From Microlunatus elymi (GTDB lineage Bacteria; Actinomycetota; Actinomycetes; Propionibacteriales; Propionibacteriaceae): a DNA stretch of 64,000 nucleotides. A program made the position numbers and the translations under genes. This document shows, in pieces, positions 59,754 through 63,398 of the stretch. The stretch lies in the NCBI RefSeq assembly GCF_007362775.1, contig NZ_CP041692.1, forward strand, positions 3,968,001 to 4,032,000, read 5' to 3'. The notes below the pieces were generated by a model. That model was not told the DNA's origin. It saw only the letters and a program-made list of their open reading frames with translations, and searched no databases. Within the stretch, counting starts at the first letter, position 1. Every line of letters starts with the position of its first letter.

Positions 59754-60410
59754 CTACTTGCCCGGCTTCGCGCCGTGCGCGATGACTCCCTCGGCCACCT
59801 CGCGCATCGACTTGCGCAGGTCCATCGCCGTCTTCTGGATCCAGCGGAATGCCTCGGGCTCGGTCAGCCCGAGTCCGACCTGCAGCAGCCCTTTGGCCTT
59901 GTCGACCACCTTGCGCGACTCCAGCCGCTCCTCCAGGTCGGCCACCTCGGCCTCGACCGCCAGGATCTGCTGGTAGCGGGCGATGGCGATCTCGATCGCC
60001 GGCACCAGATCGTCCTTGCCGAACGGCTTGACCACGTATGCCATCGCACCCGCCTCGCGGGCCCGTTCGATCAGCTCACGCTGGCTGAACGCCGTAAGCA
60101 TCACGACCGGGGCGATCCGGTCGGCGGCGATCTTCTCGGCCGCGGAGATGCCGTCCAGCTTGGGCATCTTGACGTCCATCACGATCAGGTCGGGCTTGAG
60201 TTCGGTGGCCAGCGTCACCGCCTGCTCGCCGTCACCGGCCTCGCCGACGACGTCGTACCCCTCCTCGGTGAGCATCTCGACGAGATCGAGCCGGATCAGG
60301 GACTCGTCCTCGGCGACGACGACGCGCGGCGGCGCGCCCTTGGCTGCCTTGCTGCTCGACTTCGCTGCGCTCTTCGTCTGCGGTGGAACCGCCGCTTTGC
60401 TCTCGGTCAC
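59754..60410 (-). CDS. pdtaR: ANTAR-output response regulator (PdtaR-like)
   Basis: A 218-residue regulator. Residues 1-27 are Lys/Ser/Ala-rich. The receiver (28-145) has VVVAEDESLIRLDLVEML, phospho-Asp79 in VMDVKMP and LTAFSQ, VVKPFGKDDL. An ANTAR RNA-binding domain follows (about 155-210): LESRKVVDKAKGLLQVGLGL, with the Ala/Arg-type EAFRWIQKTAMDLRKSM. In mycobacteria PdtaR with kinase PdtaS acts on transcript termination by binding RNA hairpins. GTG 60410 is chosen; TAGAGT ends seven nt upstream. No kinase gene lies beside it, as usual. Confidence 0.93.
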   Translation of the reverse strand: MTESKAAVPPQTKSAAKSSSKAAKGAPPRVVVAEDESLIRLDLVEMLTEEGYDVVGEAGDGEQAVTLATELKPDLIVMDVKMPKLDGISAAEKIAADRIAPVVMLTAFSQRELIERAREAGAMAYVVKPFGKDDLVPAIEIAIARYQQILAVEAEVADLEERLESRKVVDKAKGLLQVGLGLTEPEAFRWIQKTAMDLRKSMREVAEGVIAHGAKPGK

Positions 60411-60417
60411 GGGCCTA

Positions 60418-60423
60418 ACTCTA
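60418..60423 (-). promoter_or_regulatory. -10 box of the PdtaR-like gene (leaderless)
   Basis: TAGAGT on the minus strand, seven nucleotides before GTG 60410. Confidence 0.55.
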
Positions 60424-60540
60424 TCCAGCGGCCCGGCGTGTTGCCGAGCCACGCCCGGGTGCGCTTCATCACCAAGACCTGTGGCACAATGATCGTCGCT
60501 CCAAACGGGCTTGCTGATCGCACGATCCGTTTGGTACCCG

Positions 60541-60623
60541 GCCGGGGTGGCGGAATGGTATACGCGGACGGCTCAAACCCGTCTGCCCGCAAGGGCGTAG
60601 GGGTTCGACTCCCCTCTCCGGCA
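60541..60623 (+). tRNA. tRNA-Leu (CAA)
   Basis: An 83-nt class II tRNA. Acceptor GCCGGGG pairs with CTCCGGC (one G-T), discriminator A at 60623; anticodon stem GACGG/CCGTC with loop CTCAAAC gives anticodon CAA (reads UUG); long variable arm GCCC-GCAA-GGGC; T arm AGGGG-TTCGACT-CCCCT. The 3' CCA is not encoded. It decodes the rare UUG codon, which is also used as a start codon here. Confidence 0.97.
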
Positions 60624-60635
60624 CGGCGGTGTTTT

Positions 60636-60780
60636 CTGGGGCCGAGCCCCAGACCCACGTTCCTACCGTGTTTATCTGGGGCCGAGCCCCAGACCCGCGT
60701 TCCTACCGTGTTGCGCTGGGCGGTCGCCCGATTTTGCTGGCCGTTCTCGGCGCCGCGGGCGCCTCGAACGACGCTGCCGC
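60636..60780 (-). repeat. Structured repeat, copy C (inverted, with tail duplication)
   Basis: Minus-strand copy of the ~107-nt element. Read on the minus strand it has GCGGCAGCGT, stem 1 GTCGTTC...GAACGGC closing the GGCGCC-CGC-GGCGCC hairpin, GGGCGACCGCCC, then CGGTAGGAACG and the end hairpin CTGGGGC-TCG-GCCCCAG. The last 40 bp are duplicated (60636-60675 and 60676-60715). The end hairpin lies 13 bp past the tRNA and may terminate it. Confidence 0.85.
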
Positions 60781-60950
60781 TGCGGGCGCGGAGTCTCAAC
60801 GGTCGGCGATCCCTCCGTCATGAATCCTGAGCCTGTCGAAGGACCGGGTACGCGAGTCCGACGAAGAACCGGACTTATGGCGCTCGAGTCTGTCGAAGGT
60901 CCGAAGGCCCGTCCGCTCACAGGTCGACGAGGCCGAGAGATCTCCCCAAA
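60781..60950. other. Spacer between the inverted repeat copies
   Basis: 170 bp with no gene recognised. Contains a REP-like element (60825-60843) and a weak second one (60886-60902). Flanked by inverted copies C and A. Confidence 0.45.
60825..60843. repeat. REP-like palindrome (opposite orientation)
   Basis: TCCTGAGCCTGTCGAAGGA, the reverse form of the core at 26905. A degenerate copy GAGTCTGTCGAAGGTCC follows at 60886-60902. Confidence 0.7.
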
Positions 60951-61057
60951 GCGGCAGCGTGATCTGAGGCGCCCGCGGCGCCGAAGATCACCAAAAGGTC
61001 GGGCGATCGCCCAACGCAACACGGTCGGAACGCGGGGTCTGGGGGCTCGGCCCCCAG
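60951..61057 (+). repeat. Structured repeat, copy A
   Basis: A 107-bp copy: GCGGCAGC, stem 1 GTGATCT...AGATCAC around GGCGCC-CGC-GGCGCC, then GGGCGATCGCCC, CGGTCGGAACG and the end hairpin CTGGGGGC-TCG-GCCCCCAG. Its right end touches the damaged start of the methyltransferase gene. Confidence 0.88.
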
Positions 61058-61714
61058 AGAGTTCAGTACGAGCTGATCGCGCCGCATTGCGGGGCGGAGG
61101 TGCTGGAGGTCGGCGCGGGGCTCGGTGACTTCTCCAGTCAGCTGGTGGATCGGGACCGGGTGGTCGTCACTGACGTCGATCCGGAGGCGGTCGATTCGAT
61201 GGCCCGGCGGTTCTCCGGCCGGCCGGGAGTGCAGGCGCGTCGGCTGGACGCTGCGACGCTCACTCCGCAACGGGCAGAGCAATTGACCTCCGACCAGGGT
61301 GCGGTCGACTCCGTACTGGCGATCAACGTGCTGGAGCACATCGAGAACGACGTCGACACCCTGCAGGCGCTGTCGCGTCTGGTACGTCCCGGCGGCACGG
61401 TGATCCAGTGGGTGCCCGGCTACATGAACCTGTACGGCGACTTCGACCGGTCGGTCGGCCACGTCCGGCGTTACACCCCGAAGACGCTGGCCGCGGCCGG
61501 ACACCAAGCGGGCCCGGAGGTCCGCAGCTGCCGGCCGGTGAACCTGCTCGGCGGTGTCGCCTGGTGGGCCGCAGTCCGCAGGGGCGGCACCGGTACCCCC
61601 AAACCCGGCCTGGTGAAGATCTACGACTCCGTCGTGGTCCCGATCACTCGCATCCTCGACCGCTTCCCGATCCCCTTCGGCCAGTCCGTCCTCGGCGTCT
61701 TCACCCGCTCCTGA
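61058..61714 (+). pseudogene. SAM-dependent methyltransferase, 5' end lost to a repeat
   Basis: The frame starts abruptly at the edge of repeat copy A with QRVQYELIAPHCGAEVLEVGAGLGDFSS (outlined), the usual run-up to SAM motif I, but no start codon lies upstream in frame; the first possible is GTG 61100 inside motif I. From there 204 residues are normal: VTDVDPEAVDSM, VLAINVLEHIENDVDTL, LVRPGGTVIQWVPG, HVRRYTPKTLAAAG, and FGQSVLGVF. Perhaps 5-20 residues are missing. It may be unexpressed or start weakly at 61100. Confidence 0.65.
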
Positions 61715-61873
61715 CCCGACGAATTGCAGGAGCTGACGCACCCATAAGCACCCCCGAGATCACCGGAACCTCCTGCAATCGCCCAACCAGCTTCCCGGTC
61801 GACCCGCGGTGCTGACCGTCCCGGAACGGAGCCGGCGGTCAGATCCCCGACCACGAAGACCCCGCGCCCCGCC
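61715..61873. other. Short gap after the methyltransferase remnant
   Basis: About 160 bp; I see nothing definite. Structured repeat copy B starts at its end. Confidence 0.4.
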
Positions 61874-61980
61874 GCGGCAGCGTGATTTCGGCGCCCGCGG
61901 CGCCGAAAATCGCCAGAAAAATCGTACGAAGCCCAACTCAACCCGGTAGGAACGTGGGGTGTGGGGGCTCGGCCCCCACA
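61874..61980 (+). repeat. Structured repeat, copy B
   Basis: A 107-bp copy, the same length as A: GCGGCAGC, stem 1 GTGATTT...AAATCGC around GGCGCC-CGC-GGCGCC, then CGGTAGGAACG and the end hairpin TGTGGGGGC-TCG-GCCCCCACA. The middle GGGCG palindrome of A and C is replaced by TCGTACGA. Its hairpin ends 2 bp from the pyk stop and probably terminates pyk. Confidence 0.88.
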
Positions 61981-61982
61981 AG

Positions 61983-63398
<1,416 letters not shown>

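Follow-up and report, generated by a model that had tools for sequence, protein, structure and literature searches.

Two-hairpin extragenic palindromic repeats in Microlunatus elymi as probable transcription-end elements

The single-contig, 5.12 Mb genome of Microlunatus elymi harbours seven full copies of a two-hairpin element of approximately 107 bases together with two partial copies, with three of the full copies located inside the window, that is, the whole stretch of 64,000 nucleotides analysed here (contig NZ_CP041692.1, positions 3,968,001 to 4,032,000). The reading preferred here, with a probability of about 0.6, is that these copies constitute a small, species-restricted and spreading family of extragenic palindromic repeats which serves, in a REP/BIME-like fashion, as transcription-end elements. 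As judged from position and structure, the first module would halt RNA polymerase and/or shield the RNA 3' end just past a stop codon or a tRNA, while the second module most likely would mark the unit for copying as DNA. The family would have been gained and subsequently spread within the lineage of Microlunatus elymi, with selection presumably retaining most copies at gene ends. One hairpin family is found at several gene ends of a single species, while different hairpins follow these genes in sister species; should copying be active, repeats would provide part of the gene-end signals of these bacteria.

Copies and architecture of the element

In the direction of the gene upstream of it, the element reads TCTGGGGGCCGAGCCCCCAGA and then CCCC(G/A)CGTTCC(T/G)ACCG(T/G)G, which together make up module 1, a GC-rich, U-less and terminator-like hairpin with a CCCNCGTTCC tail. 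Approximately 30 variable bases then lead to the second palindrome, module 2, which ends in CACGCTGCCGC and has not been found on its own in the genome. A blastn search of the genome with copy A as the query gave nine places (40 of 53 candidates scored), namely the full copies A, B and C in the window and D (L002), E (L003), F (L005) and G (L007) elsewhere, and the partial copies C' and L008. A covariance model built from the seven full copies recovers, by construction, the same seven (E of about 1e-19 to 3e-21, 119 to 128 bits; 150 of 2894 candidates scored), with the next-best match in the genome at 30 bits. Equally, the tail pattern searched with at most one mismatch is present without mismatch in the seven full copies and in C' and with one mismatch at seven other places, compared with one place for the reversed control. 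Six of the seven full copies are situated between 3.81 and 4.45 Mb.

The initial annotation had described the window copies A, B and C, with C opposite in orientation to the other two, and had proposed a genome-wide search for more; the trio was indeed recovered and the search added four full copies. Some of its boundaries need revision. The start of copy C had been placed at 60636, a span that includes an additional, incomplete end hairpin in front of the actual start, and the exactly equal length ascribed to A and B is only near-equality, as one nucleotide of stem 2 in A is deleted in B.

Table 1. Features around the three window copies (positions in the window)
Feature	Position	Strand	Basis
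tRNA-Leu (anticodon CAA), module-1 units behind its 3' end	60541..60624	+	Rfam tRNA 60541-60623; ARAGORN on L006, L009
Partial copy C', module 1 only (hairpin + CCCACGTTCCTACCGTG)	60632..60671	+	direct repeat, 95%, in tandem with module 1 of copy C
Copy C, full; hairpin-1 end faces tRNA-Leu	60675..60780	+	blastn, covariance model
Copy A, full; hairpin 1 61038-61058, hairpin 2 60959-60991	60951..61058	-	blastn, covariance model
Methyltransferase frame without the ~51 first codons present in G006	61063..61714	+	comparison with G006
Copy B, full; hairpin 1 61960-61980; 2 nt past the pyruvate kinase stop codon	61874..61980	-	blastn, covariance model
Pyruvate kinase gene, ends at copy B	61983..63398	-	

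The neighbourhood of the copies is rich in other repeats. Within the window, short repeats of the CCTGAGCCTGTCGAAGGACC type are located at 60826-60850 and 60886-60912, which also occur elsewhere in the same genome and in the related genomes G011 and G018, and an inverted repeat TTGCAGGAG...CTCCTGCAA with relatives at G000:2994740 and G000:314065 occupies 61722-61782 between the methyltransferase gene and copy B. Outside the window, a distinct repeat of around 170 nt (L003:1800-1985) has, among the matches listed, about a dozen more full or partial matches in the same genome, and the similar loci L049 and L056 (G000:3087051 and 4037054) carry a GGGGTCTGGGGGTCGCCCCCC hairpin inside a longer shared sequence.

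Hairpin 1 at gene ends and the pairing of hairpin 2

In four of the seven full copies (B, D, E and G), hairpin 1 begins 2-8 nt past a stop codon, and counting the partial copy L008 the start lies at most 8 nt past a stop codon in five of eight. As a background, a distance of 0-10 nt after a gene end applies to 521 of the 21,702 intergenic base-strand starts of the window (2.4%), which results in binomial values of 1.1e-5 (4/7) and 4.2e-7 (5/8) that are optimistic, since the 53 genes stem from a home-made gene caller and the copies are related to each other. A stable hairpin directly after a gene 3' end is thus found in four of the seven full copies and, after a tRNA, in C', the hairpin foot of which is located approximately 10 nt past tRNA-Leu with copy C in tandem behind it. 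Copies A, C and F do not have a stop codon within 10 nt; ahead of F stands another long palindrome, with GTTTAT at its end. Some of the pairing in the outer part of hairpin 1 is lost in D and E. The U tract of the classical intrinsic terminator is absent, with an ACCCC-type sequence following hairpin 1 instead, and a terminator scan of 60000-62700 did not call hairpin 1. Four to five nucleotides before hairpin 1, copies A, E and G have the 7-mer GTACTGA in common, which in the case of A lies inside a gene and is not a stop codon; this motif could reflect a target preference or microhomology, and beyond it no match between the three flanks can be seen by eye.

Copy A is a clear exception to the gene-end placement, as it adjoins the truncated 5' side of the methyltransferase gene. 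The homologous gene in G006 has around 51 codons ahead of the residues QYDL. In M. elymi, homology sets in again at 61063, five bases past hairpin 1 of copy A, and the first in-frame ATG, GTG or TTG is found at 61100. The start of the gene and the region upstream, present in G006 and G012, have been lost, and in the preferred reading A would be a misplaced copy that cost the methyltransferase gene its start. As the catalytic domain still gives a Pfam match, the protein may be truncated and not dead. Copy A meets the reading frame at the hexamer CAGTAC, which is also present in G006 and beside copies E and G.

Units resembling module 1 can be traced beyond the species. The pattern GGGGCCGAGCCCC-N(1-5)-ACCCCNCGTTCC occurs in 18 stretches of an 84,980-species collection, 17 of them in the Micromonosporaceae genera Asanoa, Paractinoplanes and Mangrovihabitans and one in Microlunatus speluncae (L033), the latter being omitted from the Micromonosporaceae count as a member of another family and identical to a locus of G004 (L010) over 2,800 of 2,800 letters. 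At 14 of the 17 Micromonosporaceae loci, ARAGORN places a tRNA 3' end 48-63 nt upstream of the hairpin core on the same strand; at the other three (L023, L035 and L038) no tRNA was called, yet a tRNA-like sequence is visible in the alignment. Within the genus, G004 and G008 carry a module 1 unit behind tRNA-Phe. Also at the G004 locus L010, the terminator-like hairpin of tRNA-Phe is followed by about three tandem repeats of a CCCGCGTTCCT(A/G)GCCCGC-like unit. Placement behind protein genes was considered for the look-alikes and was encountered within 80 nt at none of the 18 loci (the 17 and M. speluncae), most of which follow tRNAs. As the loci had been chosen by a pattern containing core and tail, the conservation of those letters proves nothing, whereas neither the association with tRNA genes nor the outer stem pairs were constrained by this pattern. 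The foot of the hairpin appears in the variants TCC/GGA, CTG/CAG, GTG/CAC, TGC/GCA and ACG/CGT, and at the first three outer positions 11, 12 and 12 of 13 distinct contexts from across the genera are paired, compared to shuffled expectations of 6.0, 8.1 and 8.0, values matched in 3, 0 and 4 of 2000 shuffles, respectively. The fourth outer pair has no pairing excess among the 13 contexts, from which copy F was omitted since its core lies outside the pattern. A pseudoknot of the tail CGTTCC with the upstream loop of the look-alike loci was judged by eye and dismissed as inconsistent in the alignment. With look-alikes after tRNA genes and a covarying foot, the most fitting reading of hairpin 1 is that of a tRNA-type terminator which in M. 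elymi was joined to module 2 and put at other gene ends. A hairpin followed by ACCCCNCGTTCC behind the tRNA genes of two families thereby represents a concrete and testable terminator candidate.

In hairpin 2, over 13 pairs and seven copies, 91 of 91 cells are paired (shuffled mean 91.3%, matched in 0 of 500 shuffles), five of the 13 pairs have a double-sided change (shuffled mean 1.9, matched in 1 of 500 shuffles) and the eight cells with such a change were matched in 0 of 500 shuffles, while six of six slid registers gave no double change. The number of further pair types is ordinary (matched in 84 of 500 shuffles). A core GGCGCC-CGC-GGCGCC regarded as constant by the initial annotation varies as well, with D and G carrying GCCGCC/GGCGGC by a compensatory G-C to C-G swap; one double-changed pair of hairpin 2 falls within this core. 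Covariation beats the controls, as the initial annotation had required of its proposition that compensatory change points to selection on structure, but all counts rest on seven related copies, a relatedness that inflates them and limits the claim, and the pattern might equally stem from DNA palindromes being corrected by template switching.

Furthermore, the two strands of hairpin 2 are not equivalent. On the A/B strand the 13 counted positions are all Watson-Crick or G-U. A symmetric GA/GA internal loop is present in five of the seven copies (A, C, D, E and G), in place of which F has normal pairs and B pairs through with one bulge. The A/B strand is the better folder in seven of seven copies, with a margin in A of only 0.7 kcal/mol, and summed over the seven copies folding amounts to -158.5 kcal/mol on the strand antisense to the gene versus -132.0 kcal/mol on the other. 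This preference, behind which there are few independent changes, favours recognition of the A/B strand as RNA or single-stranded DNA. It is not predicted by a pure mRNA 3'-end role, and a function of hairpin 2 as ordinary RNA of the mRNA strand is weakened accordingly.

Probable gain in the lineage and competing explanations

The covariance model found no copy in 19 other genomes of the genus (E at most 0.01; 150 candidates scored per genome), and the exact two-module pattern has no occurrence in the 84,980-species collection, which possibly does not include the genome of the window itself. One match in G006 to query positions 30-69, covering the linker and part of stem 2 (E 9.5e-4, L012), is located inside a reading frame of 386 codons and was taken as chance. 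The gene neighbourhood as such is preserved, with response regulator, tRNA-Leu, methyltransferase and pyk in the same order as in the window in G006 and G012, and blastn of the window region against these two genomes gave nothing matching A, B or C beyond short chance pieces. Equally, G011 has tRNA, methyltransferase and pyk in the same order, with around 4 kb between tRNA and methyltransferase, and does not match A, B or C in the two stretches compared. Absence of the element from the same gene neighbourhoods in relatives suggests that the family was gained and spread within the lineage; as the intergenic flanks cannot be aligned with those of relatives, this absence is not a clean empty site and exact insertion points are unreadable. 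The two genes that flank site E are 493 nt apart here, as against 57-209 nt in nine relatives in which these two pieces are likewise next to each other (G002 71, G007 121, G009 76, G010 102, G011 105, G013 96, G016 57, G018 115 and G019 209 nt, measured as distances between aligned pieces among the matches listed), the longer gap being filled also by other repeats, and at site G similarity in relatives ends at the stop codon.

Retention of hairpin 1 after the same genes in relatives was considered and discarded, as a scan of 45 loci (19 pyk, 15 M23 and 11 site-E) did not find the core GGGGCCNAGCCCC at any of them; two of the loci have the tail CCCNCGTTCC, each a single time and without the core. 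Instead, sister genomes have different hairpins at the ends of the same genes, and in G004 one palindrome with compensating arms stands behind both pyk and M23. This palindromic repeat, GCCGACTTGTCAGAA...TTCTGACAAGTCGGC (L136, L142, L145 and L159), has a centre that varies yet stays self-complementary and often directly follows stop codons. It gives 94 matches in G004, both strands counted, is matched in six of the 20 genus genomes including that of M. elymi, and is positioned at most 10 nt from a gene 3' end in four of six G004 copies and four of five M. elymi copies examined.

Carrying these observations further, the element might be a mobile terminator, that is, a tRNA-type terminator hairpin joined with a second palindrome into a transposable palindromic unit which targets the 3' ends of transcription units, in which case actinobacterial lineages would swap their gene-end hairpins for such lineage-specific families; in this strong form the proposition is doubtful. 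A section of an attenuator study is entitled 'A harvest of mobile terminators' in the available part of the text (PMC2965389). Rather unlikely, too, is a non-autonomous single-stranded-DNA transposon resembling REP or IS200-IS605 elements, with hairpins 1 and 2 of the A/B strand as transposase recognition sites, GTAG as cleavage tag and gene-end placement as target choice or tolerance. The strand-polar folding, the tandem G-A mismatches and G-T pairs on the A/B strand, the GTACTGA ahead of hairpin 1 in A, E and G and the same neighbourhoods without copies in relatives are consistent with such a transposon, and GTAG is indeed present in five of seven copies, but it is found 9-11 nt off the stem foot and is replaced by GTCG in A and D, and the copy number is only seven. 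PF01797 (RAYT, Y1 transposase), the only transposase family searched, has no match in the genome, as opposed to a detection in five of 14 control genomes, and so provides no mover. A parent insertion sequence was discarded as blastn with copy A revealed no longer element in the genome that shares the ends, with PF01797 absent, and mobile-element cargo as neither the 72,556 plasmid nor the 50,697 phage records contain a match to copy A, which equally speaks against the transposon.

Two further explanations fare less well. In a passive scenario, a duplicated terminator would have been spread by recombination or template switching, and palindrome-correcting DNA repair would have generated the covariation without selection on structure. 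Although the partial unit in tandem at tRNA-Leu, the CAGTAC at the junction of copy A with the methyltransferase gene and the clustering of six of seven full copies in one part of the genome agree with this scenario, it is distinctly unlikely, as the bias in placement towards gene ends needs selection or targeting and the flanks of A, E and G are alike by eye in GTACTGA alone. Still more improbable is a small RNA produced from the A/B strand and ending at hairpin 1. The multiple copies follow the gene ends of the opposite strand, a simple consensus scan of 60000-62700 found no sigma-70-like promoter and at the Rfam threshold only the tRNA matches, against which the better folding of the A/B strand as RNA, the restriction of hairpin 2 to Watson-Crick or G-U pairs on this strand and hairpin 1 as a natural 3' end can be set.

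Comparison with known families

At the gathering threshold, Rfam identifies the tRNA alone in the window, and for 60620-61990 its single hit (E 0.43) stays far under the gathering score of the family concerned, in agreement with the earlier statement that no known family matches. Of the affiliations put forward in the initial annotation, a dispersed palindromic repeat at gene ends of REP/BIME type with a terminator-like hairpin 1 can be maintained, but a MITE cannot, as the ends TCTGGGG and CAGCGGCAGC are not inverted repeats and no flanking target duplication is seen by eye. A related layout outside the family was met in G184, presumably a Streptomyces, in what we take to be a Streptomyces-type extragenic repeat ending in GGGGTCTGGGGGC...GCCCCCAGA. 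In three places of this genome an imperfect palindrome stands upstream of the GGGGTCTGGGGGC hairpin as in the element, whereas the sequence of module 2 looks unrelated by eye. The exact GGGGTCTGGGGGC hairpin pattern is rare (four of 296 genomes of the phylum, that of M. elymi included). Literature searches by sequence strings gave no paper on this Streptomyces-type repeat, and those on REP, terminators and MITEs in Actinobacteria gave nothing attributable to the element.

REP sequences, as portrayed in the accessible text of PMC3733652 (in which the word 'Actinobacteria' occurs 0 times), are short units of 20-40 bp that occur in high copy number, their palindrome bearing the tag GTAG or CGTC at one end, and REP/BIME are positioned mostly downstream of genes, often less than 20 bp from gene 3' ends and sometimes inside genes. 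The element has in common with them dispersed extragenic palindromes, placement at gene ends (in four of the seven full copies, with A, C and F as exceptions), compensatory stem variants and G-T pairs. On the other hand, with a tag that is separated from the stem and absent from two of the copies, its few copies, its size as a composite of around 107 nt made of two unlike hairpins and the lack of a match to the Y1 transposase family in its genome, the element does not qualify as a REP in the strict sense.

Transcript ends provide a second comparison. In Streptomyces clavuligerus, 353 of 535 highly structured 3' ends mapped by Term-seq do not have a U-rich tract, according to the part of PMC8269248 at hand, and with such U-less, 'I-shaped'-like actinobacterial 3' ends the element shares a strong GC hairpin, the missing U tract and the location at gene ends. 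It differs in that hairpin 1 is part of a family of repeats, in which a conserved tail and a second palindrome accompany it, and in being known from sequence, whereas the S. clavuligerus ends have been mapped. According to the available text of PMC2267715, terminators can likewise be made of DNA uptake sequences, a repeat family with this second role; seven copies would be far too rare for an uptake signal. In a group for which classical terminators are predicted only rarely, as stated in the accessible part of PMC2965389, the element would tie repeat families to transcription termination, working like REP/BIME, yet positioned outside the strict REP definition.
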